From contig JAUILK010000015.1 of the NCBI GenBank assembly GCA_030433275.1, positions 1-64,000 of the forward strand: a stretch of 64,000 nucleotides of DNA, read 5' to 3'. Under the pieces are notes generated by a model. It did no database searches and was not told the origin of the DNA. It saw nothing but the letters and a program-made list of their open reading frames with translations. Position numbers and translations under genes: made by a program. Of the stretch, positions 1-20,125 are shown piece by piece (position 1 is the stretch's first letter; each line of letters begins with the position of its first letter). Source of the DNA: Gammaproteobacteria bacterium (GTDB taxonomy: Bacteria; Pseudomonadota; Gammaproteobacteria; Nitrococcales; Nitrococcaceae).

Positions 1-56
1 CACGCGAAACTGGAAGCCCGTCGGCCCTGTGTGGCTGAATCCTGAGCCGGCACTAA

Positions 57-248
57 AAGCAGCATGACAGAGGCTCCAACTACCTTGACAGACACCGGCT
101 CAAGCGAGCCCACATGCAAGGAAAGAAGGTGTCGTTGTCCGTCGCTTTGAAAAATGAGCGTGCATACCAGTTTTATGAACGGCTCGGTTTTCGAGAGATA
201 AAACAGACCGAAACGCATAATTATTTGTCGTGCGAGCCACAGAGATGA
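57..248 (+). pseudogene. GNAT acetyltransferase, C-terminal fragment
   Basis: The frame is open after an in-frame TAA at 54-56 and ends at TGA 246-248. Its last 40 codons read like the end of a GNAT N-acetyltransferase. The signature NERAYQFYERLGF, which forms beta-strand and helix near the acetyl-CoA pocket, is followed by a short tail ending CEPQR. The upstream acetyl-CoA loop (Q/RxxGxG/A) is not readable in the preceding codons. Only about 60 residues remain of a family that is usually 140-180 residues, so this is a 5'-truncated remnant. The first possible ATG is at 114. It lies just left of the repeat-bounded island and may be debris of an adjacent insertion. Confidence 0.6.
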
Positions 249-372
249 ATCCTTTTCAGTTCCGAGCGCCTGCATGACAACCTGTTGCAGCGGACCGTGA
301 TGGATAGATAAAGGTGAAGGTCATACATGCGGTGCCCGGCAACTGAGCCAGGGCGGTTTCCCCCTAAAAATT

Positions 373-438
373 CCGTTCATGCTGAGGTCCTTCGGCTACT
401 TCTCAGGGCGGGCTTGTCGAAGCGCTCAGAGCGAACGG
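373..438. repeat. REP-like palindromic element
   Basis: An imperfect inverted repeat opens with ccgttcatgctgag and closes with cgctcagagcgaacgg. Its centre contains the ggcttgtcgaagc word. This matches the widespread extragenic palindrome family with TTCGACAAGCTCAG...GAACGG half-sites found in many proteobacteria. The rest of the 249-507 interval shows no convincing gene. Confidence 0.5.
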
Positions 439-507
439 GTTAATTAAATTAGCGTCGCTTAAATGCTTCGAGATTGGCGGCGCCCGACCGTCTACCGTTC
501 GTTATGA

Positions 508-537
508 CTACACGGCGATCGGGGCTTTGATGGCCGG
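508..537. repeat. Left 30-bp direct repeat (att-like copy of thyA 3' end)
   Basis: It begins ctacacggcgatcggggctt and is identical to 5858-5887 over 30 bases. Identity stops at both edges (538 versus 5888, and 507 versus 5857). Read on the minus strand it would encode PAIKAPIAV and a stop codon, with no thyA coding sequence attached. Confidence 0.85.
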
Positions 538-581
538 GTGCCACTCGTGCAATGTGCTCATCGCCCAGTTTTCTTACCATT

Positions 582-614
582 ATTAGTGCTAATGTTTTTG
601 GATCTGTCAGATCC
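582..614. promoter_or_regulatory. Two palindromes upstream of the helicase gene
   Basis: A perfect 12-bp palindrome, ATTAG-TG-CTAAT, occupies 582-593. A second perfect inverted repeat, GGATCTG-T-CAGATCC, occupies 600-614. Both lie 60-95 bases before the start codon of the helicase-nuclease gene, a usual position for operator or promoter elements. No regulator gene is seen in the island. Confidence 0.3.
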
Positions 615-665
615 ATGGTCATTCAACACCTGATAGCTACGAGAGAGTGGGATTTTAACAGGGAA

Positions 666-674
666 GGGGGGGGG
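666..674 (+). repeat. G9 homopolymer in the ribosome-binding region
   Basis: Nine consecutive G residues sit two bases before the ATG at 677. They are preceded by gggaa, so the tract overlaps the Shine-Dalgarno region. Slipped-strand changes in its length would alter the distance between ribosome-binding site and start codon. Confidence 0.7.
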
Positions 675-676
675 CT

Positions 677-3600
677 ATGCCTATACAGGAGGTTACACAG
701 ACGGCACATCAGATTTTTGATTATCTGATCGACTGGGAGCAGCAGACTCGTAAGCCGTTCTTTCGCATCACCGATCATCAGGATCTAGTGATCGAGGAAG
801 CCGAGCTGGTTGGGCTTCCTGGAATCGAGTTCGACGTTGCCGGTAGCGAGGCTGACACGTGGCTTGTGCTCGAGCGGCTGCGTCCAGAGTCACCACCCCA
901 GCCGCCTGAACTAATCGCCGAATTTCTTGCCTTGAAGAACAATCCCGACGCTGATCCGGGTGTGTATGAAGCGATCGAAGTGCACCGCGATGACCTGCCG
1001 GAGACTCTCGCCGGGGTGGCCGCCGCAGCCAGTGTAATGCCCGAACCGGACGTGGATGGCCTGGTGCGCCTGGCCTTGGAAGATCTCCCAGCTGTGGCAA
1101 GCGAGATTAATCGTTGGGTGGCAGACGAATGGCGACGCTGGACAGAGCGGGAACGGCCGCGCCGACGCACAATCAAGCTCTATGAGGCACTCTTTCGGCT
1201 TCAGAAGCGTATCGAGGAGGAGGGCACGGAGTCACCCACGGAGCTTGTATGGGGGCTTGGGCGTTGCACTTGGAATCATTCGAGTGCCCACATCGATTAC
1301 CCTCTCCTCACGCGCCGGGTGGAGATCGAGATTGACGAGCGGCTCAACATTGTCGTTCGCCCCACGCAGCACGAGCCGGTGATCGAAACTGAGCGGTTGG
1401 AGCGTCTCGGTATCGATAGCGCGGCCACGGTGCGCGATTTCGCGAGGCAACTCATCGCCGACGACGATGCCATTGAGATGGCACCTTGCAATCGCGAGTC
1501 CTACGCCGATATCGCGCGCCAAGCGGCAAGCCACCTACACGAGCGCGGCGAATACTTTCCCTACGAGCGCGTCGACGAAGGTGATCGCCGCAACCCGGCG
1601 GCGCGCGACTACCCGCGCCTGAACGATACTTGGGTGCTCTTCGCCCGGCGCCGGGGCACCCATATCTTCGCCGAAGATGTCCGGCGCCTCAAGGAATCAT
1701 TGGAAGAAAGCGAGCGTACGCCGTCAATTCTTGAGGCTATCGTCAAAGGGCCTCCCGCGGAGCAGAAGGGTTTCGAACGCATTAACTATCGTGGATTTGC
1801 CGGGATAGCGAGCGGCGGGGGAAGCCTTGCCTTCGGGCGCGAGCACATTCCGTCTGAGGCGCGCGAGCTCTACTTTCCGAAGCCCTATAACACCGAGCAG
1901 GTGCAGATTGTCGAGCGGCTCGACCAATCCGATGGTGTCGTCGTCCAAGGGCCGCCGGGTACCGGCAAGTCGCATACGATCGCCAATATTATCTGCCACT
2001 ACCTCGCCACCGGCAGACGCGTACTCGTGACCTCCAAGGGCGAGTCGGCGCTTGAGGTGTTGCGCGACCATCTTCCCCCACCCCTACGCTCGCTCGCGAT
2101 CAGTCTGCTCACGAGCGAGCGCGAAGGACTGAGGCAACTAGAGCGTTCGGTAGGCTCCATCGCCGGTCAACTCGCCATCCTCAACGAGCGGGAGCTCGAA
2201 CGTGATATCCGCGATAACCGGCATAGGGTGGATACTTATCATGAGAAGATTGCGGGGATCGACGGTGAACTAGAAGAGATCGCGGGGACACATCTTTCGA
2301 ATCTTGAGGTGCGCGGCAAGCAGTACCGCCCCGAGGACTTGGCCTGCTGGGTGGTGGAGGCGCGCTCCCGTCACGGTTGGCTGGAGGACCGCCCAAAGGG
2401 CATCATTGGAAACATGCCTTTCAGAGAGGCCGATCTCGACGAGCTTCGCGCCATTCGTGATCGCGCCGGGGATCGCTGGATCCATTTGAGCGTGGCAACC
2501 CCGGCGCTCGCGGAGCTGCCAACTGAGCAGAGCATCGTCGAGACGCACCGGCACCTTCGCTCGCGGGTGGCGCTTCTTGAAGCGGCCGCAGTTGGGGAGG
2601 TGCTGGAATTTGATTCTCACGCCTTGCGCAAGGCCAAGGAGCTTGAGGATGGCCTGAAGGAGTATCGCGAGCATCTGGACTTGCTGAGGAGCGACTGGGA
2701 GCGGCGGCTACGTGTGGACTTCGCTGAAGAGGGCGAGGCAGGCCAGCATATCGATGCCATCGAGCAATGGCTTTCAGAAGTCGAGTTGCTTGAGGAGCGG
2801 CGGAAACCGCTTATCGGGCGTGCCATTGAGTTAGAGAATGGCGCGCTCTCTGAGTTGAAGTTTCATAAGGCACTTGCCCGGGGCGCGGCCGGTAAAAAAC
2901 CGGTAGGGCTTTTCGATGCGGGCGCTATCAAGGAGGCAATCGCCGCGGTGCGCCTGGACGGTGAACCGCCGCGCGATGCCGAGCAGTGGACGCTCGTTCG
3001 CGATACTGCAGCATTGCGCCGTGATGCGCGTCAGGCGCTTGTGCGCTGGAATGCGCTGGCCGAGGAGATTGGTGCGCCAGCCGAGGATACGCCGCCCCAG
3101 CATGCGCCGCGTCGCATTGCTGAGATCGCGGACGCCTGCCGGCGCGCTTGCCGTTTGGGCCGGGAGTTTGATCGACGCCTCCCCGGCTGGGTCCGTGCTC
3201 TTTTTGGGCCTGGAAAAGAGACCCTTCTCGCCGATGATGCCGGACTCGATCGGTTACACCGCTCGCTTGATGCTGGTATCCAGCGCGCCGATCACGACAT
3301 AGCATTGCGGCGGTTGCGTGAGTTCCGCAAGCGTCTAACGGCCTACTCGGACCCCATTTCCGAGCGTGCCCGCGAGATCATCCAGAGACTTGGTGATGAG
3401 GATTTCAGGCGCGATGCGTTAGAGTCGGCATGGCATGCGCTGCGCGAAGACCTGCGCCGAATCGAGAGCCTAGAGGCAGATTTCGAGCGCGCCGGCGAGA
3501 TCATAAAATCCATCCGAGAAGCTGGTGCGCCGCGGTGGGCGGATCGTCTCGAGCATGGGGTTCCCGGTGCTGAGGGTGATACTTCACTGCTGCCATCGGA

Positions 3601-5785
3601 TGCGAGCGAGGCTTGGGTGTGGGCGCAGAGTGCGGCCTATATAGAGGCCATCGATCAGCGAGACCGCCTCCAGATGCTCTCCGCCGCACGCTCTGAAGCG
3701 GAGCGCTATCTCGCCCAAGCTCACCAGCACACAGTGGAACTGAGCACTTGGCTTGCTATCAAGCGCAACACCACGAGTAGCATCAGCGCCGCCCTTCAGG
3801 CCTATCTCAAGGCAATCAAAAGCATCGGCAGTGGTACAGGCAAGCGCGCTGTGCGCTACCGGCGTGAGGCACAGCGCGCGCTGAAGACCGCTCACCAAGC
3901 TGTGCCCTGCTGGATTATGCCGCATCACCGAGTTTCGGAGTCACTGCCGCCGGAGTTTGGGAGCTTCGATCTTGTGATCATCGATGAGGCTTCACAGTCC
4001 GATGCTTGGGCGCTTCCGTCACTCCTGCGGGGCAAGAAAATCCTTATCGTCGGCGACGACAAACAGGTATCGCCGGGTGCTGTCGCGGTCCCCGAGGAAA
4101 CGATTCGGCGTATGCAGGGGAAGCACCTCGCTTCGGCCGTATATGGTTCCTTCCTACTTCCGGACCGCTCGATTTATGATCTTGCGAGCACGCTTTTCGC
4201 CGAGAACATCATCCGGCTACGCGAGCACTTCCGCTGCGTGGAGCCAATCATCCAGTTCTCTTCGCGGGAATTCTACGGCAACGAGATCAAGCCGCTGCGC
4301 ATTCCGAAGCCATCCGAGCGGATTGACCCACCCCTTGTCGATGTATTCGTCGAGGATGGATCGCGCGACGCCAGGCGACAGACAAACGAGGCTGAGGCCG
4401 AGGCAATCGTCGATGAGATTGCACGCCTTGTAGATGATGTGCGCTATGCTGGGCGCAGCATTGGCGTAGTGACGTTGCTCGGGCATCAGCAGGCGAATCT
4501 GCTGCGGGAGCGTATCTATCAGCGTATCGGTAGTGAGGCTTGGCAGGCCCATAACCTCCACGTTGGCGAGCCGAGCAACTTTCAGGGGCGTGAGGCCGAT
4601 ATCGTAATGCTCTCCATGGTGGTCTGCCCGGCGCAGTTGAAGGCAGCCACGCTACCAAGCGACGAGCAGCGCTTCAACGTTGCTGCTTCCCGGGCACGCG
4701 ATCGACTCTATGTCTTTCACAGCGTTCCGCGTGAGCGCCTGAGCAAGCGAGATCTTCGCGCGCGGTTGCTCGATCACCTTCAGGTACCGATCGAGCATGG
4801 ACCGAGGCCTGATGTCTCCGAGCTTAGGGATCTCTGCCAGTCAGGCTTCGAGGCCGCGGTCTTCGATGCGCTTGTAAAGCGCGGCTATCGGGTCACCCCA
4901 CAGGTACGCGCCGGGGGCTACTCAATCGATCTAGTGGTTGAGGGCGACAATGATGCGCTCCTCGCTATCGAGCTCGATGGGGATCAGTATCACATCGACC
5001 GCTGGATCGAGGACATGCACCGGCAGCGGGTGCTCGAACGCATGGGCTGGCGGTTTTGGCGTTGCTGGGGCTCCTCCTATACGCTCGACTCCGAGAGCTG
5101 CCTCGCTGACCTCGAGGGGCGCCTCGCCGCAATCGGTATTTTGCCGAACGGTGGGATAGGCGGGGCGCCGAGCCGTTACACGGAGTATCGTCGAGTGCGT
5201 GGCCTATCCGGTGAAGACGCTGCAGGGATGGCGTGGCCTTTGGAGACCGAAAAGCGCAAGAGCAAGGCAACAAATGCAGCTGAGGATGTCGGGGTGGAAA
5301 CGTCGATGGTAACTGCTTTGGTTGGGGCAACCACGAAGTCCGGTGAAATGGCGCCACGCACCCTCCAGGGCGGTGAAGTGCCGACGCGCCCTGGTTGCGC
5401 CCAGGGAGTTCTGTTTCCTGACCCCTATGACCAGGCTATCCCGGGCAGTTTCGAAGAAGCTACCATCGTCCGCGGCGATGATGCCGGAGAGCTTGCTGCA
5501 ACGGAGAGCGTGCCAACCGAGGAATTACCTCCACCAGGTCAGGTCTCAGCGCGTGTGGTGGAGATCAACGATGTAGTTGTCTATGAGACCGTGGATAAGC
5601 GCCGCCAGCAGGGCCGAGCGCAAATCGTCTCCGGCAATTCGAAACCTGACTACGGCATTCTCAATCGTGAGACGCCGTATGGCGTGGCGCTGCTCGGTGC
5701 CAGTGTGGGCGAGATTGTTACTGCGATGATGCCCGGCAACCGTCGAGTGCAGTTGCAGATACTTGGCATTGAGAGACCAGAATAG
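677..5785 (+). CDS. SF1 helicase - Vsr-like nuclease - GreA/GreB-like domain fusion
   Basis: This 1702-residue protein probably binds and cuts nucleic acid. About 400 N-terminal residues of unrecognised type precede a superfamily 1 helicase core. Walker A is GPPGTGKS at 425-432 and Walker B is VIIDEASQ with D1103/E1104. Later motifs include GDDKQVSP, EHFRC, NFQGREADIV and NVAASRARDRLYV. A long helical insertion separates Walker A and B, as in AAA_11/AAA_12 Upf1-like helicases. Residues about 1389-1490 resemble the Vsr/MTES_1575 PD-(D/E)XK fold, with D1418 and the E1432-x-D1434 strand. Residues about 1627-1702 resemble the C-terminal FKBP-like domain of GreA/GreB. Helicase-Vsr single-gene proteins are known among phage-defence candidates; defence here is inferred. 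The gene is alone within a thyA-flanking repeat pair. Confidence 0.85.
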   Translation: MPIQEVTQTAHQIFDYLIDWEQQTRKPFFRITDHQDLVIEEAELVGLPGIEFDVAGSEADTWLVLERLRPESPPQPPELIAEFLALKNNPDADPGVYEAIEVHRDDLPETLAGVAAAASVMPEPDVDGLVRLALEDLPAVASEINRWVADEWRRWTERERPRRRTIKLYEALFRLQKRIEEEGTESPTELVWGLGRCTWNHSSAHIDYPLLTRRVEIEIDERLNIVVRPTQHEPVIETERLERLGIDSAATVRDFARQLIADDDAIEMAPCNRESYADIARQAASHLHERGEYFPYERVDEGDRRNPAARDYPRLNDTWVLFARRRGTHIFAEDVRRLKESLEESERTPSILEAIVKGPPAEQKGFERINYRGFAGIASGGGSLAFGREHIPSEARELYFPKPYNTEQVQIVERLDQSDGVVVQGPPGTGKSHTIANIICHYLATGRRVLVTSKGESALEVLRDHLPPPLRSLAISLLTSEREGLRQLERSVGSIAGQLAILNERELERDIRDNRHRVDTYHEKIAGIDGELEEIAGTHLSNLEVRGKQYRPEDLACWVVEARSRHGWLEDRPKGIIGNMPFREADLDELRAIRDRAGDRWIHLSVATPALAELPTEQSIVETHRHLRSRVALLEAAAVGEVLEFDSHALRKAKELEDGLKEYREHLDLLRSDWERRLRVDFAEEGEAGQHIDAIEQWLSEVELLEERRKPLIGRAIELENGALSELKFHKALARGAAGKKPVGLFDAGAIKEAIAAVRLDGEPPRDAEQWTLVRDTAALRRDARQALVRWNALAEEIGAPAEDTPPQHAPRRIAEIADACRRACRLGREFDRRLPGWVRALFGPGKETLLADDAGLDRLHRSLDAGIQRADHDIALRRLREFRKRLTAYSDPISERAREIIQRLGDEDFRRDALESAWHALREDLRRIESLEADFERAGEIIKSIREAGAPRWADRLEHGVPGAEGDTSLLPSDASEAWVWAQSAAYIEAIDQRDRLQMLSAARSEAERYLAQAHQHTVELSTWLAIKRNTTSSISAALQAYLKAIKSIGSGTGKRAVRYRREAQRALKTAHQAVPCWIMPHHRVSESLPPEFGSFDLVIIDEASQSDAWALPSLLRGKKILIVGDDKQVSPGAVAVPEETIRRMQGKHLASAVYGSFLLPDRSIYDLASTLFAENIIRLREHFRCVEPIIQFSSREFYGNEIKPLRIPKPSERIDPPLVDVFVEDGSRDARRQTNEAEAEAIVDEIARLVDDVRYAGRSIGVVTLLGHQQANLLRERIYQRIGSEAWQAHNLHVGEPSNFQGREADIVMLSMVVCPAQLKAATLPSDEQRFNVAASRARDRLYVFHSVPRERLSKRDLRARLLDHLQVPIEHGPRPDVSELRDLCQSGFEAAVFDALVKRGYRVTPQVRAGGYSIDLVVEGDNDALLAIELDGDQYHIDRWIEDMHRQRVLERMGWRFWRCWGSSYTLDSESCLADLEGRLAAIGILPNGGIGGAPSRYTEYRRVRGLSGEDAAGMAWPLETEKRKSKATNAAEDVGVETSMVTALVGATTKSGEMAPRTLQGGEVPTRPGCAQGVLFPDPYDQAIPGSFEEATIVRGDDAGELAATESVPTEELPPPGQVSARVVEINDVVVYETVDKRRQQGRAQIVSGNSKPDYGILNRETPYGVALLGASVGEIVTAMMPGNRRVQLQILGIERPE

Positions 5786-5801
5786 CCGTGACTAAAAAAC
5801 T

Positions 5802-5830
5802 AATTGTGTTCCCTCAAGCTGGCCACAATT
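5802..5830 (+). terminator. Weak hairpin after the helicase gene
   Basis: AATTGTG at 5802-5808 pairs with CACAATT at 5824-5830 across a 15-base loop. A tctcttt stretch follows. The stem is short and AT-rich, so this is only a possible terminator. Confidence 0.25.
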
Positions 5831-5857
5831 TCTCTTTGTCGCTAGGGGTTGTCAATG

Positions 5858-5887
5858 CTACACGGCGATCGGGGCTTTGATGGCCGG
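5858..5887. repeat. Right 30-bp direct repeat (att-like, inside thyA)
   Basis: This is the last nine codons and stop of thyA on the minus strand, identical to 508-537. It marks the probable junction at which the island joined the chromosome, leaving thyA intact. Confidence 0.85.
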
Positions 5888-6691
5888 ATGTGGATCGTAG
5901 CCGACGATCTCGAAATCATCATAGCAATAGTCGAAAATCGAGTCGGGTTTGCGTGTGATGATCAGCTTCGGCAACGGGCGGGGCGCCCGGGAGAGTTGGA
6001 GTTCGGCCTGTTCCAGATGGTTGGAGTACACGTGGACATCGCCACCGGTCCAGACGAAATCGCCGGCCGCCAGGCCGCATTCTTGGGCGATCATATGGGT
6101 AAGCAAGGCGTAGCTGGCAATATTGAACGGCAGACCCAGAAATACATCGCAGCTGCGCTGGTAGAGCTGGCAGGACAGTTTGCTCCCGGCGATATAGAAC
6201 TGGAACAGGGCATGGCAAGCGGGCAAGGCCATCCGGCCTTGGGCAACGTTTGCTTGCGGGCTCAGGGATTCGTCCGGCAGGTATTCGACGTTCCACGCGC
6301 TGACGATGTGGCGGCGTGAGTTCGGGTTCTGCTTGATACCTTCGATCACGTTCGTAATCTGATCGATTGTGCCACCATCCTGAGTCGGCCACTTGCGCCA
6401 CTGTGGTCCATAAATGGGTCCCAACTCGCCGTGCTCGTCGGCCCACTCATCCCAAATGCGTACCCCATTCTCCTTTAGATAGTCGATGTTGCTCTCGCCG
6501 GAGAGAAACCAGAGTAACTCATGGACGATGGAGCGTAGATGCAGCCGTTTGGTGGTAAGCAGTGGTAAGCCTTGTTGCAGATCGAAACGCATCTGATAGC
6601 CAAACACGGACAGCGTGCCGGTTCCCGTGCGGTCGCTTTTCTGTGCGCCTTGGCGGAGGACATGGCGCAGCAGTTCCAGATACTGTTTCAT
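5858..6691 (-). CDS. thyA: Thymidylate synthase
   Basis: Makes dTMP from dUMP with methylene-tetrahydrofolate as carbon donor and reductant, in the cytoplasm. The 277-residue protein shows the whole ThyA fold. [11 protein letters not shown] lies near residues 21-31. The active-site cysteine is C159 in [11 protein letters not shown]. The nucleotide-binding [17 protein letters not shown] and the closing DVHVYSNH follow. It is about 13 residues longer than E. coli ThyA because of a small insertion before the catalytic loop (around [10 protein letters not shown]). It lies 67 bp downstream of lgt on the same strand, the usual lgt-thyA pair. Its last 30 bases are duplicated at 508-537, so a mobile island abuts its stop codon. 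Confidence 0.97.
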
Positions 6692-6758
6692 TGGACCGCC
6701 CGTGGGGTGCGTTCGTTGCCGGGGCCGTGGCTATGGCGTGCGTCACCTTGGATAGGTG

Positions 6759-7565
6759 TCATGCGTTCGTCGATCCGGCGCCTGCAAGTTGGCCACGATA
6801 AGCCCAGCTGAGCAAGCCCAGGCCGACGATAATCATCGGCAGGGAGAGAGCCTGCCCCATGGTGAGCCAGCCAAAGGCGAGGTAGCCGAGCTGGGGATCC
6901 GGCATGCGCACGAACTCCACCAGAAAACGAAACACACCATAGCAGAGCAGGAACAAGCCGGATACCGCGCCGGTCGGCCGTGTCTGTCGGGAGAACAGCC
7001 ATAGGACGGTGAACAGTATGACGCCTTCGAGCAGGAACTCGTAGAGCTGCGAGGGGTGCCGGGGTTGGAAACCCAATGGCGGATAGACCATGCCCCAAGG
7101 CAGGGTTGTTGGCGCACCCCAGAGCTCACCGTTGATGAAGTTGCCGATGCGTCCGGCCCCGAGCCCGATGGGCACCAGCGGAGCCACGAAGTCGATAACC
7201 CGCCAAAACGGCACCTCGATGCGCCGTGCGAACCACCAAGTCATGGCTATGACGCCGAGCAATCCTCCGTGGAAGCTCATCCCTCCGTGCCAGATTTGGA
7301 ACAGAGCCAAGGGATTGGCGAGCAGCTGATTCAAACCATAGAAGAGCATATACCCCATGCGCCCGCCGATTATGACCCCCAACGCGACGAACAGCATCAG
7401 GTCGTCGACTTGCTGGGGCTGGATCGGGAACTCAGGCCGCCGTGCCCGCCACCGACCGAGCCACCAGCCGGCTATGAAGCCGACCGCATACGTGATGCCA
7501 TACCAGTGAACAGCTAACGGACCGAGCCGAAAGGCGATCGGGTCGATGTCCGGGTAGTGCAGCAT
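6759..7565 (-). CDS. lgt: Prolipoprotein diacylglyceryl transferase
   Basis: An inner-membrane enzyme that moves diacylglyceryl from phosphatidylglycerol to the lipobox cysteine of prolipoproteins, the first step of lipoprotein maturation. The 268-residue protein has about seven hydrophobic segments. The Lgt signature [13 protein letters not shown] is at residues 138-150, with the essential arginine at 139. HGGMSFHGG is at 93-101, with the histidine equivalent to E. coli H103. Length is normal for the family. It starts the lgt-thyA operon and is divergent from the SH3-domain gene across a 265-bp interval. Confidence 0.97.
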
Positions 7566-7830
7566 TGGCGATCTCCGTGGGCTGCTGTTGGGCAGCTGCT
7601 GCGCCTGTGTAGCCTCTGACGGGCAATCGGTTCGATGCCATCAGCATTTAAGAGAGCGGTGTGCCGTGCGCGGGGTTCACCGCCATGATCGTGCAACTGG
7701 GTTCCATTGAATGGATTATTGCGCGTAGATTGCGCGATGGTATCCAGTCGGCATTAGTTTTTCGACCTGCGGGCATTCGCTACAATCGACAGCCTCAAGG
7801 AGGAACTTAGGCAGTCATAGGAGGTTTGCC

Positions 7831-16383: not shown

Positions 16384-17688
16384 ATGGATCGCAACGAATT
16401 TGCCAAGCGTCGAGCCGATTTGAAGCAATTGATGGGCGATGAGGGTATTGCCATCATCCCGGCTGCACCGCAGCGGCGGCGCAATCGCGATGTCTTCTAT
16501 CCTTACCGGCAGGACAGTGATTTTTTCTATCTCACCGGTTTTGGCGAGGCTGAGGCCGTGGCTGTGCTCGTTCCCGGCCGTCAGCACGGCGAGTGTTTAC
16601 TGTTCTGCCGTGAGCGCGATCCCGCTAAGGAGGTATGGGACGGCCCGATTGTTGGCCAGGAGCGGGCGGTCAGCGATTACGGTATGGATGATGCCTTTCC
16701 AGTGGACGATATCGACGAGATTTTGCCCGGGCTGATCGAAGGGCGACGCAAAGTATTCTACACGATGGGCATTGATGCCGAGTTTGATCATCGGGTTATC
16801 GGTTGGGTGAATCAGGTGCGTGAGCGGGCGCGCTCCGGAGTTCGGGCGCCGGCAGAATACGTCTCGCTCGAGCATCTGCTGCACGAGATGCGTTTGATAA
16901 AAGGGCGAGCGGAAATCGAGGTGATGCGTAGCGCTGCTGAGATCAGCGCACAGGCGCATCGGCACGCTATGGCTGTTTGCCGGCCCGGTCTCTATGAGCA
17001 TGCGATTGAGGCGGAGTTTCACGCCATATTCCGTCGCTACGGCGGCTGGCCGGCTTATCCGCCGATCGTAGGCGGCGGCCGCAATGCGTGTGTTCTGCAT
17101 TACATAGAGAACTCGGCGCCGTTACGGGCCGGCGATCTGTTGTTGATCGACGCCGGGGTCGAACTCGATTGTTACGCCTCCGATATTACCCGCACCTTCC
17201 CTGTCAACGGTCATTTCAGCGGTGAGCAGCGAGCCGTCTATGAACTTGTGCTCGCCGCGCAAGAGGCGGCCATCGCTGAGGTGCGGCCTGGCAAGCACTG
17301 GAATCAGCCGCACGAGGCCGCCACCGAAGTTTTGGTCGAGGGTATGCTTGAGCTCGGTTTGCTGCACGGTGAGCGTGACGCCATCATAGAGCAAGGCGAT
17401 TATCGGCGTTTTTTCATGCACCGCACGGGGCATTATCTAGGTATGGATGTGCATGATGTGGGCGATTACCGCATCGACGGTCAGTGGCGCGAGCTCGAGC
17501 CAGGTATGGCGCTAACTGTGGAGCCCGGACTTTACATCGCGGCAGGTAGTGAGGGTGTAGACGAGCGTTGGTGGAATATCGGCGTGCGCATCGAGGACGA
17601 CGTGATCGTGCTGCGTGAGGGTTGCGAGGTGATAAGCGCCGCGGCGCCCCGTGCGATCGATGCGATCGAAGCGCTGATGGCGAAATGA
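16384..17688 (+). CDS. pepP: Xaa-Pro aminopeptidase P
   Basis: Manganese-dependent M24B peptidase that removes an N-terminal residue before proline. The 434-residue protein has an N-terminal creatinase-like domain and a C-terminal pita-bread domain. All five metal ligands are visible: D256 and D267 in the IDAGVELDCYASDITRTFP segment, H350 in HRTGH, E380 in VEPGLY and E404 in VRIED. It follows ygfB by 21 bp and overlaps ubiH by ATGA, the conserved order. Confidence 0.96.
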   Translation: MDRNEFAKRRADLKQLMGDEGIAIIPAAPQRRRNRDVFYPYRQDSDFFYLTGFGEAEAVAVLVPGRQHGECLLFCRERDPAKEVWDGPIVGQERAVSDYGMDDAFPVDDIDEILPGLIEGRRKVFYTMGIDAEFDHRVIGWVNQVRERARSGVRAPAEYVSLEHLLHEMRLIKGRAEIEVMRSAAEISAQAHRHAMAVCRPGLYEHAIEAEFHAIFRRYGGWPAYPPIVGGGRNACVLHYIENSAPLRAGDLLLIDAGVELDCYASDITRTFPVNGHFSGEQRAVYELVLAAQEAAIAEVRPGKHWNQPHEAATEVLVEGMLELGLLHGERDAIIEQGDYRRFFMHRTGHYLGMDVHDVGDYRIDGQWRELEPGMALTVEPGLYIAAGSEGVDERWWNIGVRIEDDVIVLREGCEVISAAAPRAIDAIEALMAK

Positions 17689-18938
17689 GCGCTGCGCCGG
17701 AATACGATGTTGTTATCGTGGGCGGCGGTCTGGTCGGTGCGAGCTTGGCTTGCGCCCTCGCCACGGCGGCTGTGCGGGTGGCCGTCATCGAACCGTTTCC
17801 GCCCGAGGTCGATGCTCAGCCGAGCTTCGATGAGCGCCAGATTGCCTTGGCGCCGGCAACGCGGCGTATTTTCGAAGCCCTGGGGTTGTGGTCAGCGATT
17901 GCTATGGAAGTCACGCCGATCCGTGAGATCCACGTCTCCGAGCAAGGGGGGTTCGGGATCACTCGAATGTCGGCCGCCGAGGAAGGGCTCGACGCCTTAG
18001 GCCATATACTGCCCAGTCGCCGTCTCGGTGCGGCGCTGTTCGAGCGGTTGCGCGCGCGGCCCGAGATCACCCTTTATTGCCCGGCCAAGGCGCAGGATGT
18101 AACAGTGGATGCAATGGCAGCAACCGTGAGGATTGAGAGCGAGCAGGGGATGCAAAGCCTGAGCGCGCCGCTGCTCGCCGTCTGCGATGGCGCTCGCTCT
18201 AGGATCCGCGAGCGGCTCGGGATCCGGTTACGGGAGCGCTCGTATCAGCAGGTGGCCGTGATCGCCAATGTGACGCCGGAGCGCAATCCTGATGGACGCG
18301 CCTACGAGCGTTTTCTGGCGGGCGGCCCACTCGGAGTGTTGCCGGCCGCGGGCGGCGGATGTGCGGTAATCTGGACGATGCCGGTGGCGTTGGCCGAAGC
18401 GGTGCTCAAGTTGGATGAGGCGGGGTTTTTGGCGCGGCTACAGGCAGCGTTCGGTTATCGCCTGGGCCGTTTTCTTGCTGCTGGTAAGCGTTCGGCCTAT
18501 CCTTTGGCGGTCTTGGTGGCTGAGCGCTGTGCGGCGCAGCGTGCGCTGGTGATTGGCAACGCCGCGCATACCCTGCATCCGGTGGCTGGGCAGGGTTTCA
18601 ACTTGGCGCTGCGTGATGTGGCCGTTCTCGCCGAGCTCGTAACGGACACCCTCGAGGCGGGTGGTAATCCGGGCGAGCCGCAGCTTCTGGAGCGTTATCA
18701 ACGTTTGCGGCGGGTCGATTACCAGCGCACGCTGGCTTTTACTGATGGAATCGTGCGGCTTTTCTCCAACCGGTTGCCCGGTTTGACGCTGGCGCGCAAT
18801 CTCGGGTTGCTGTTCTTGGACCTGTTTCCGGGCAGTCGCCAGACGCTCATGCATCAGGCTATGGGACGCTCTGGCTGGTTGCCGCGGCTGGCCCGTGGTC
18901 TGCCGCTTGCCAGCGTGGAGCGGGGGATGGACGGATGA
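17685..18938 (+). CDS. ubiH: 2-octaprenyl-6-methoxyphenol hydroxylase
   Basis: FAD-dependent aromatic hydroxylase of ubiquinone biosynthesis, acting on membrane-bound prenylphenols. The 417-residue protein has the N-terminal dinucleotide fold VVIVGGGLVGASLACALA, a QIALAPATRRIFEALGLW segment, and the second FAD motif GNAAHTLHPVAGQGFNLALR. Asparagine replaces the usual aspartate in G(D/N)AAH, as in other UbiH proteins. The ATG at 17685 overlaps the pepP stop (ATGA), and the next hydroxylase overlaps its end in the same way. Confidence 0.93.
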   Translation: MSAAPEYDVVIVGGGLVGASLACALATAAVRVAVIEPFPPEVDAQPSFDERQIALAPATRRIFEALGLWSAIAMEVTPIREIHVSEQGGFGITRMSAAEEGLDALGHILPSRRLGAALFERLRARPEITLYCPAKAQDVTVDAMAATVRIESEQGMQSLSAPLLAVCDGARSRIRERLGIRLRERSYQQVAVIANVTPERNPDGRAYERFLAGGPLGVLPAAGGGCAVIWTMPVALAEAVLKLDEAGFLARLQAAFGYRLGRFLAAGKRSAYPLAVLVAERCAAQRALVIGNAAHTLHPVAGQGFNLALRDVAVLAELVTDTLEAGGNPGEPQLLERYQRLRRVDYQRTLAFTDGIVRLFSNRLPGLTLARNLGLLFLDLFPGSRQTLMHQAMGRSGWLPRLARGLPLASVERGMDG

Positions 18939-20125
18939 GCCGTACCGATGCGGATGTGGCGATTCAGGGCGCGGGAATGGTCGGCTTGCTGCTCGCTGCG
19001 GCCTTGGCACACCGCGGGCTGCGGGTGCTGTTGCTGGACAAGGAAGGTTTGCCGCAGTGGCAAGCGCAGCGGTATGGCCAACGAGTATGCGCCATCAATC
19101 TCGCCAGCGAGCGTTTGCTGCGTGGGTTGGAGATTTGGGAGGCGCTACAGCGGGTCAGTCCCTTTCGCGCGATTCGGGTTTGGGATGCGCTCGGTGGTGG
19201 TCGGGTTGCCTTCGATGCCGCCGATCTGGGCGAGCCGCATCTTGGCCATATTATCGAGAATGATTTGATTCGCAGCGCGCTGTACCAATCGGTTAGGGCC
19301 ACTAAGAGGGTCCAGATTCGGATTCCGGCATGCGTCCAACGCTTGGAGCCCGATGATGAAGCAGTGACTTTGCGGTTGAGCGACGGCACTCGCGTTACGG
19401 TTGCTCTCGTCGTCGGCGCCGATGGTGCCCGCTCAGCAATTCGCGAGTTGCTCGGTATTCCGGTACGGCTGAGCCGCTATGCGCAGAAGGCGATCGTGGC
19501 GCCGATTCGTACCGAAATAGCGCACGAGGAGATTGCTCGGCAATGGTTTCTACCCGGCGGGCCACTGGCTTTTTTGCCGCTCGCCGATGGACGTTGTTCG
19601 ATCGTTTGGTCGCTGCCAACCGTGGAGGCGGAGGCTCGCCTTGCCCTCGACGAAACTGCTTTTTGCCAGGCGCTGGCGCATGGTTCCGCAGGTGAGTTGG
19701 GTCATGTCTTGGAAGTGGGTGAGCGCGGCGCGTTTCCGCTGTATCGGTTGCATGCGGCTCGCTATTGTACCGAGCGAGCCGTCCTGGTCGGTGATGCGGC
19801 CCATGTGATTCATCCGCTTGCCGGCCAGGGTGTCAATCAGGGGTTTCAGGACGTTGCGGTACTCGCCAAGGTGCTGATCGATGCCCAGCGTCGCGGTCGA
19901 GATATCGGTGGTCGGCTGGCGTTACGGCGTTACGAACGGGCCCGGCGTGGTGACAATCTGCTCATGGAATGGTCCATGGAAGGATTTCATCAATTGTTTA
20001 CGCGCCGCCGCCCGCCCCTGGTTCGGTTACGCAGCTTAGGACTCGGGATGACGCATCGCAGCACTTCGGTAAAGCGGTTTTTTATGCGCAGGGCAATCGG
20101 GGCTGATGTCTCGATTCTGCCGTGA
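18935..20125 (+). CDS. ubiI: UbiH/UbiF/VisC-family FAD-dependent hydroxylase
   Basis: A second flavin monooxygenase of ubiquinone ring hydroxylation, 396 residues. It has the FAD fold VAIQGAGMVGLLLAAALAHRG, the conserved GQRVCAINLASERLL, and LVGDAAHVIHPLAGQGVNQG with a normal GDAAH motif. It takes the place of visC/ubiI in the E. coli operon, directly after ubiH with an ATGA overlap. Family members hydroxylate C5 or C6 of the ring, and sequence alone does not separate UbiI from UbiF; position favours UbiI. The downstream gcvT start lies 35 bp after its end. Confidence 0.82.
   Translation: MSRTDADVAIQGAGMVGLLLAAALAHRGLRVLLLDKEGLPQWQAQRYGQRVCAINLASERLLRGLEIWEALQRVSPFRAIRVWDALGGGRVAFDAADLGEPHLGHIIENDLIRSALYQSVRATKRVQIRIPACVQRLEPDDEAVTLRLSDGTRVTVALVVGADGARSAIRELLGIPVRLSRYAQKAIVAPIRTEIAHEEIARQWFLPGGPLAFLPLADGRCSIVWSLPTVEAEARLALDETAFCQALAHGSAGELGHVLEVGERGAFPLYRLHAARYCTERAVLVGDAAHVIHPLAGQGVNQGFQDVAVLAKVLIDAQRRGRDIGGRLALRRYERARRGDNLLMEWSMEGFHQLFTRRRPPLVRLRSLGLGMTHRSTSVKRFFMRRAIGADVSILP

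Follow-up and report, generated by a model that had tools for sequence, protein, structure and literature searches.

A one-gene island without an integrase at the 3' end of thyA

How does a stretch of 5.35 kb holding a single long gene come to lie between two copies of the last codons of thyA, beside a thyA gene that is itself intact? We addressed this question in a window of 64,000 nucleotides, bases 1-64000 of contig C48 (71,380 bases), from a gammaproteobacterial draft genome of 3.41 Mb in 104 contigs (G000). The window begins with the first base of C48, so there is no sequence to its left. An exact copy of the first 98 bases of the window is found on contig C55, and 97 of these bases also occur on C59. 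The features of the locus are collected in Table 1.

Table 1 Features at the thyA locus of the window
Feature	Position	Strand	Evidence or remark
Native flank downstream of uninterrupted thyA	258..507	.	Matches G001 beside thyA
Left thyA 3'-tail copy (putative left attachment site)	508..540	-	33 nt, 1 mismatch to 5858-5890
Left non-coding island end, upstream of the helicase gene	541..676	.	47.1% GC; missing from the G001 empty site
Sole long island gene, predicted 1702-aa helicase with nuclease domain	677..5785	+	ORF and profile matches
Right non-coding island end	5786..5857	.	44.4% GC
Right thyA-tail copy (putative right attachment site), the end of intact thyA	5858..5890	-	Same junction in G004
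thyA, target gene, 277 aa, intact frame	5858..6691	-	Pfam Thymidylat_synt 3.5e-122

Two thyA tails and an empty site

The initial annotation described positions 508-537 and 5858-5887 as identical over 30 bases with immediate divergence on both sides, and the right copy as the final nine codons and stop of thyA. All 30 bases match. The left edge is as sharp as described, but the right edge is softer, since the match reaches 33 nt (508-540 versus 5858-5890, 32 of 33 matching) with a sole mismatch at 538 G / 5888 A. The assignment of the right copy is likewise correct, with ten codons in the 33-nt form, and the left copy also comprises ten codons and a stop, its first codon being CAC. The mismatch is synonymous, and thyA of a second genome of the same genus (G004) has the G form. 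Read along the plus strand, identity between the copies starts at the first base of the stop codon and remains inside the coding sequence. From left to right, the native flank is followed by the left copy, the island after 540, the right copy after 5857 and then thyA. As judged from this arrangement, the working thyA present after the insertion takes its last codons from the repeat.

The repeat is not explained by chance, because about 5e-11 exact 30-mer pairs are expected in 6 kb at the local GC and, when 60 stretches of 5.1 kb were drawn at random from the window, their longest flanking exact direct repeats measured only 12-17 nt. At up to three mismatches, one copy of the 30-mer was found in G001, of the same genus, and one in G004, and none in the other 20 of the 23 family genomes. 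The whole host genome holds two copies at the same threshold, not the many that the initial annotation had named as evidence against integration; the other such configuration, two copies in a relative that lacks the helicase gene, was absent from the relatives seen.

Four same-genus genomes were searched with window positions 1-6000, giving matches in G001 and G004 and none in G002 and G003. G001 has one tail copy without the island, which is the empty site in a close relative that had been proposed as a check. The left side of the left copy adjoins the native downstream flank, and that flank aligns with the G001 empty site: window 319-540 aligns at 91% with positions 17593-17816 of the G001 locus (L037), 258-306 matches 17368-17416, and the thyA-lgt segment at 5857-7824 aligns at 88% with 17783-19762, the flanks being contiguous. 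The window thyA protein is 94% identical to that of G004 and 92% to that of G001. The thyA of G003 is only 64% identical to the window protein, though its lgt is 79% identical in DNA, and this genome therefore says little about the site; a protein search found no thyA match in G002.

The single tail and contiguous flanks of G001 show an insertion, and the integration that had earlier been proposed from the repeat is thereby supported. Integration rather than another rearrangement is supported at the sequence level by the identity beginning at the stop codon, the right junction shared with G004, and an island that appears younger than its flanks; as its agent we infer a site-specific recombinase. 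We read the island as a 5,350-bp integrated unit with one long gene at the thyA 3' end, bounded by two tail copies. Its composition is not foreign, with a GC content of 60.2% (remainder of the window, 58.1%) and a helicase GC3 of 66.7% versus 67.0-76.6% in three neighbour genes.

Two candidates based on inverted symmetry were rejected. A core dyad in the left copy (an inverted pair matching at 9 of 11 positions around 8 bp) was matched by 8.9% of 20,000 synonymous recodings, and that of the right copy was equalled by 38% of synonymous recodings, with base shuffles giving 0.4%; the DNA fold z was -0.39. Insertion as an IS or transposon was set aside as well, as the long gene is not a transposase and, among the 20 inverted pairs listed, no pair spans the island with an arm at either end.

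In G004, the junction between the last part of the helicase gene and thyA falls on the same base as in the window (tail at L038 2163-2195, with two mismatches, at 5864 and 5888). The right non-coding end shows two differences from G004 in its last ~45 bases and a 27-bp indel further left. The G004 contig then ends inside the gene, so that only a single assembly shows the left junction, and the remainder of the helicase gene was not found in G004. Over the last 263 helicase codons, to which the comparison is confined, window and G004 (whose matching record describes a metagenome assembly) differ by a dS of 0.086 and a dN of 0.018, against dS values of 0.235-0.365 for 11 neighbouring genes. These neighbours were frames >180 aa in window 1-26000 matched in the G004 contig, those with <70% protein identity being dropped. 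Fisher tests on synonymous differences gave p values of 2e-4 for helicase versus thyA and 9e-5 for helicase versus lgt. The neighbouring genes have diverged about three times as much as the 3' part of the helicase gene, and the island has therefore moved after the lineages split. The divergences indicate that it either spread from one lineage to the other after the split or was acquired by both independently out of a shared pool; in both cases this junction was formed repeatedly, unless an exchange was bounded close to it.

The helicase-nuclease gene and its relatives

The predicted protein has a Walker A motif at residue 425, DEAS at 1103, a REase_MTES_1575 nuclease domain at 1391-1481 and a GreA/GreB-C-like stretch at 1626-1699. 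Profile E-values were 5.9e-16 for AAA_11, 4.6e-20 for AAA_12, 2.7e-29 for the MTES_1575 nuclease and 7.6e-6 for the GreA/GreB C-terminus. The last of these falls just below its cut-off (26.3 vs 26.9 bits) and lies above it in the Thioalkalivibrio relative described below (31.7 bits). The AlphaFold pLDDT of the C-terminal domain is 63, and Foldseek with this model returned nothing at E <=0.001, its best rows looking unrelated; the putative GreA/GreB reading comes from the profile matches only.

The protein matched the PADLOC profiles PDC-S37 (2.5e-67, the best stretch covering profile positions 732-1336 of 1550) and Hhe (2e-38), and the NCBIfam profiles ProA (1.8e-72) and Hhe (4.5e-54). Like these families it combines a helicase with a nuclease domain, and the ProA profile extends over residues 396-1485. 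In contrast to ProA and Hhe proper, it scores far below the curated whole-protein cut-offs (244.5 bits vs 1500 for ProA, NF058533; 183.5 bits vs 2000 for Hhe, NF042953) and has an Rnk/GreA-like C-terminus. Profile comparison places the helicase-nuclease as a distant relative of the anti-phage proteins ProA and Hhe, and an anti-phage role is likely by this kinship. Promoter-like sites in 300-6900 numbered 0 versus 1.6 in shuffles and terminator-like sites 5 versus 5.1, which gave nothing usable.

Relatives of the gene are thinly spread. In the class sample, 34 of 274 genomes have any match to the helicase protein, and besides G000 itself, G234, G235, G313 and G095 match over >1,300 residues at 30-38% identity. 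Among plasmids, 383 records match, all at <60% identity, and 24 of them cover at least 80% of the gene. The phage collection gave two weak partial matches, and IMG/VR contained neither a relative of the gene nor an exact 23-mer of the thyA tail. A scan by pattern through 84,980 species genomes yielded 18 loci, with a single full-length relative above 40% identity, that of Thioalkalivibrio thiocyanoxidans ARh2 (60%; 61% in a second comparison).

Flanking repeats were then sought at 22 helicase loci. The longest belonged to the Thioalkalivibrio locus (L097, 44 nt), followed by L102 (43 nt), L146 (21 nt) and L114 (20 nt); 12 further loci had repeats of 11-17 nt and six, with little or no flank, had none. 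We do not regard L102, L146 and L114 as islands; parts of the L102 repeat recur at further places in that locus. An integrase match was obtained at one of the 22 loci (L145).

The Thioalkalivibrio homologue is flanked by an intact tRNA-Asn on one side and by a duplicate of the tRNA 3' end on the other, the repeat comprising 44 identical bp plus 26 bp of the following region. L097 resembles the window island in its full-length helicase-nuclease, in direct repeats of a gene 3' end, and in that no integrase was detected, either with the integrase queries or by reading its ORFs. It differs in its attachment gene, in its length of 7.2 kb, and in the second segment and third, degenerate tRNA tail that follow. 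This short third tail (12 bp exact) is present at 18387, and L097 therefore looks like a tandem arrangement. Debris of an IS4-type transposase was also read from its ORFs, without a profile test. The ends of the two islands have no detectable shared sequence.

When 30 genomes of the genus were searched with the right flank of L097, 29 matched, the best ones mostly through the tRNA 3' end alone. Six congener tRNA-Asn loci (L182-L187) all lack the helicase. Two of them, L182 and L183, are islands with a second tRNA tail and an adjoining tyrosine integrase, that of L183 being 57% identical to an integrase on contig C89 of the host genome. L186 and L187 read as empty, L185 has ~4 kb between tRNA and flank with no second tail, and L184 stops at a contig end.

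Routes of entry into thyA

That the unit contains no integrase, as initially annotated, was confirmed: its one long gene is not a recombinase, and a tblastn search with ORFs taken from 13 of the host genome's 14 PF00589 places gave no integrase match in the window. The same held when integrase queries were compared with 65 thyA loci, of which some overlap and most have ~1.5-kb flanks (30 from a thyA protein search, the window's own included, 30 from a tail-pattern search and 5 fetched). The thyA-tail pattern matched in 168 of 369 class genomes, more than once in G000, G206, G291, G310 and G167, with the copies of G206, G291 and G310 on different contigs; no other close tail pair was seen in the 369 genomes, the copies being placed for all of these five but G167. 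At the order level, 23 of 54 genomes matched, G000 alone with two copies. As no second close tail pair appeared, thyA is not shown to be a common target, and the idea of a class-wide hotspot was dropped.

We consider it probable that the locus holds a CIME-like island, lacking an integrase, that integrated site-specifically at the thyA 3' end. A circular form with a thyA-tail attachment site would have recombined with the chromosomal tail inside the shared 30 bases. The working thyA would from then on have ended in the tail copy brought by the island, with its original end displaced to the opposite side of the island. The enzyme, for which a tyrosine integrase of phage or ICE type is the most likely candidate, would have acted in trans or been lost later. 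What would maintain this non-autonomous element is its cargo, the helicase-nuclease, which probably restricts phages. Since the same gene family lies at tRNA-Asn in Thioalkalivibrio, this cargo appears to have been moved by carriers with different target sites.

An identical product would arise from a single homologous or microhomology crossover over ~30 bp, by which host recombination, with no dedicated integrase, took in a circle or taken-up DNA carrying the thyA tail. Such a route fits the lack of a recombinase and would require no common enzyme for the differing target sites in two genera. Moreover, recombination between thyP3 of phage phi3T and thyA of Bacillus subtilis, cited as apparently independent of the phage integrase in the accessible part of PMC8637289, implies that thyA can act as homology for incoming DNA. 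We nevertheless regard a crossover as unlikely, because the start of identity exactly at the stop codon, which is expected of a gene-restoring attachment site, would be a coincidence, and G004 uses the same base. Furthermore, the island lies beside a more diverged thyA, which argues against travel with long flanking homology on the thyA side. Vertical descent of an immobile remnant appears more improbable still. A larger, integrase-bearing island would have entered thyA once and shed all but the useful gene, with G001 never having had it or having excised it. The helicase dS, about one third of that of the 11 neighbour genes, speaks against simple vertical descent, and the non-coding debris is little (136 and 72 bp), although no integrase is left. 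The thyA dS does favour a remnant, being 0.246 between G000 and G004 versus 0.384 and 0.354 in comparisons with G001, but at lgt G004 is nearest to G001 (0.185 vs 0.255 and 0.281). We give very little credence to an assembly artefact, a false join of a strain variant at the 30-bp repeat: the two copies are not identical (538/5888), the flank on the left is native and the right junction recurs in another assembly, against which stand the single sighting of the left junction and the draft state of the genome.

Returning to the site-specifically integrated, CIME-like island, a further-reaching proposal is that it is a minimal and still mobile one-gene defence unit, a satellite consisting of cargo and att, which is moved wholly in trans by borrowing integrases of differing specificity (for the thyA tail here and for tRNA-Asn in Thioalkalivibrio). 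We hold this only tentatively and find it rather doubtful.

Significance and comparison with known systems

With thyA, the candidate list of island targets gains a protein-coding gene from a central pathway, and a putative anti-phage gene is found alone with only attachment sequence. The empty site, shared junction and lower divergence offer a small, well-defined system for testing whether one-gene defence islands are mobilised in trans. Since the family occupies two attachment genes that are unrelated, further cases might be sought by scanning for solitary defence genes enclosed by repeats of a gene's 3' end where no integrase is present.

The kind of element is already known, and islands that restore the gene they enter, protein genes included, have been described (PMC12884075, PMC4482086; 'thyA' does not occur in the accessible part of PMC12884075). 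In the accessible parts of the open-licence papers searched on thyA or thymidylate synthase and integration, thyA was nowhere described as the attachment site of an integrase. Compared with site-specific islands in general, the window island has target-derived direct repeats and an empty site but no recombinase gene in the element. The dusA islands, in the portion of PMC4482086 available, likewise have direct repeats of the target gene and replace the gene end with island sequence. They differ in their point of entry at the 5' end, in a mean length of 42.6 kb and in an integrase common to all, whereas the window island is at the 3' end of thyA, measures 5.35 kb and has no integrase. A CIME is described in the available part of PMC5704250 as an element whose integration and transfer genes have been lost while attL and attR were kept. 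The window island corresponds to this description: putative attachment sites derived from the 3' end of a gene are present on both sides, and genes for integration or transfer are missing. It departs from a CIME as described there in its single gene, in that no accreted, ancestral or related mobilising element was found at thyA (65 loci, 369 class genomes), and in the transfer after the split of the lineages that its low divergence indicates.

Left end of the window and the thyA flank

The window opens on a multicopy sequence with exact copies on contigs C55 and C59 of the assembly. The C55 copy adjoins an open reading frame with weak matches to rve (transposase), and the sequence is probably the end of an insertion sequence that broke the contig. 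Within the native sequence downstream of thyA, a further segment looks like a dispersed repeat, with matches on contig C3 of the same genome, on contig C143 of the congener G004, and at other places in G001, the same-genus genome with the empty site. In G001, the thyA flank adjoins a folA-like gene, identified from reading the open reading frame there. Contig C44, which carries such a gene in the window's genome, may be adjacent to the window's contig (C48).

Features of the window and of compared loci
Feature	Location	Remarks
Multicopy sequence	window 1-98	
GNAT-type acetyltransferase fragment	window 129-248	C-terminal part only; FR47, 1.2e-4
Repeat-like segment	window 364-442	
GreA/GreB C-terminal or Rnk-like domain	window 5552-5782	helicase residues 1626-1702
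folA-like gene	L149 (contig C44) 2658-4076	~0.5 kb from C44 end
thyA of G003	L039 3313-4101	
Second segment, Thioalkalivibrio	L097 16409-18400	

Divergence of thyA in a congener

The thyA of G003, another genome of the genus, is only 64% identical to that of the window, versus 79% in DNA for the adjoining lgt; one of the lineages may carry a replacement thyA.

Helicase C-terminal domain and the Thioalkalivibrio locus

The helicase-nuclease ends in a fused GreA/GreB C-terminal or Rnk-like domain. Domains of these types bind RNA polymerase, which would suggest a putative transcription-linked step in defence by the helicase-nuclease. The same domain is present in the Thioalkalivibrio relative, whose helicase island is adjoined by a second segment lying between two tRNA-Asn tails; this segment carries an AsmA-family gene and is missing from the empty site of a congener (L186).
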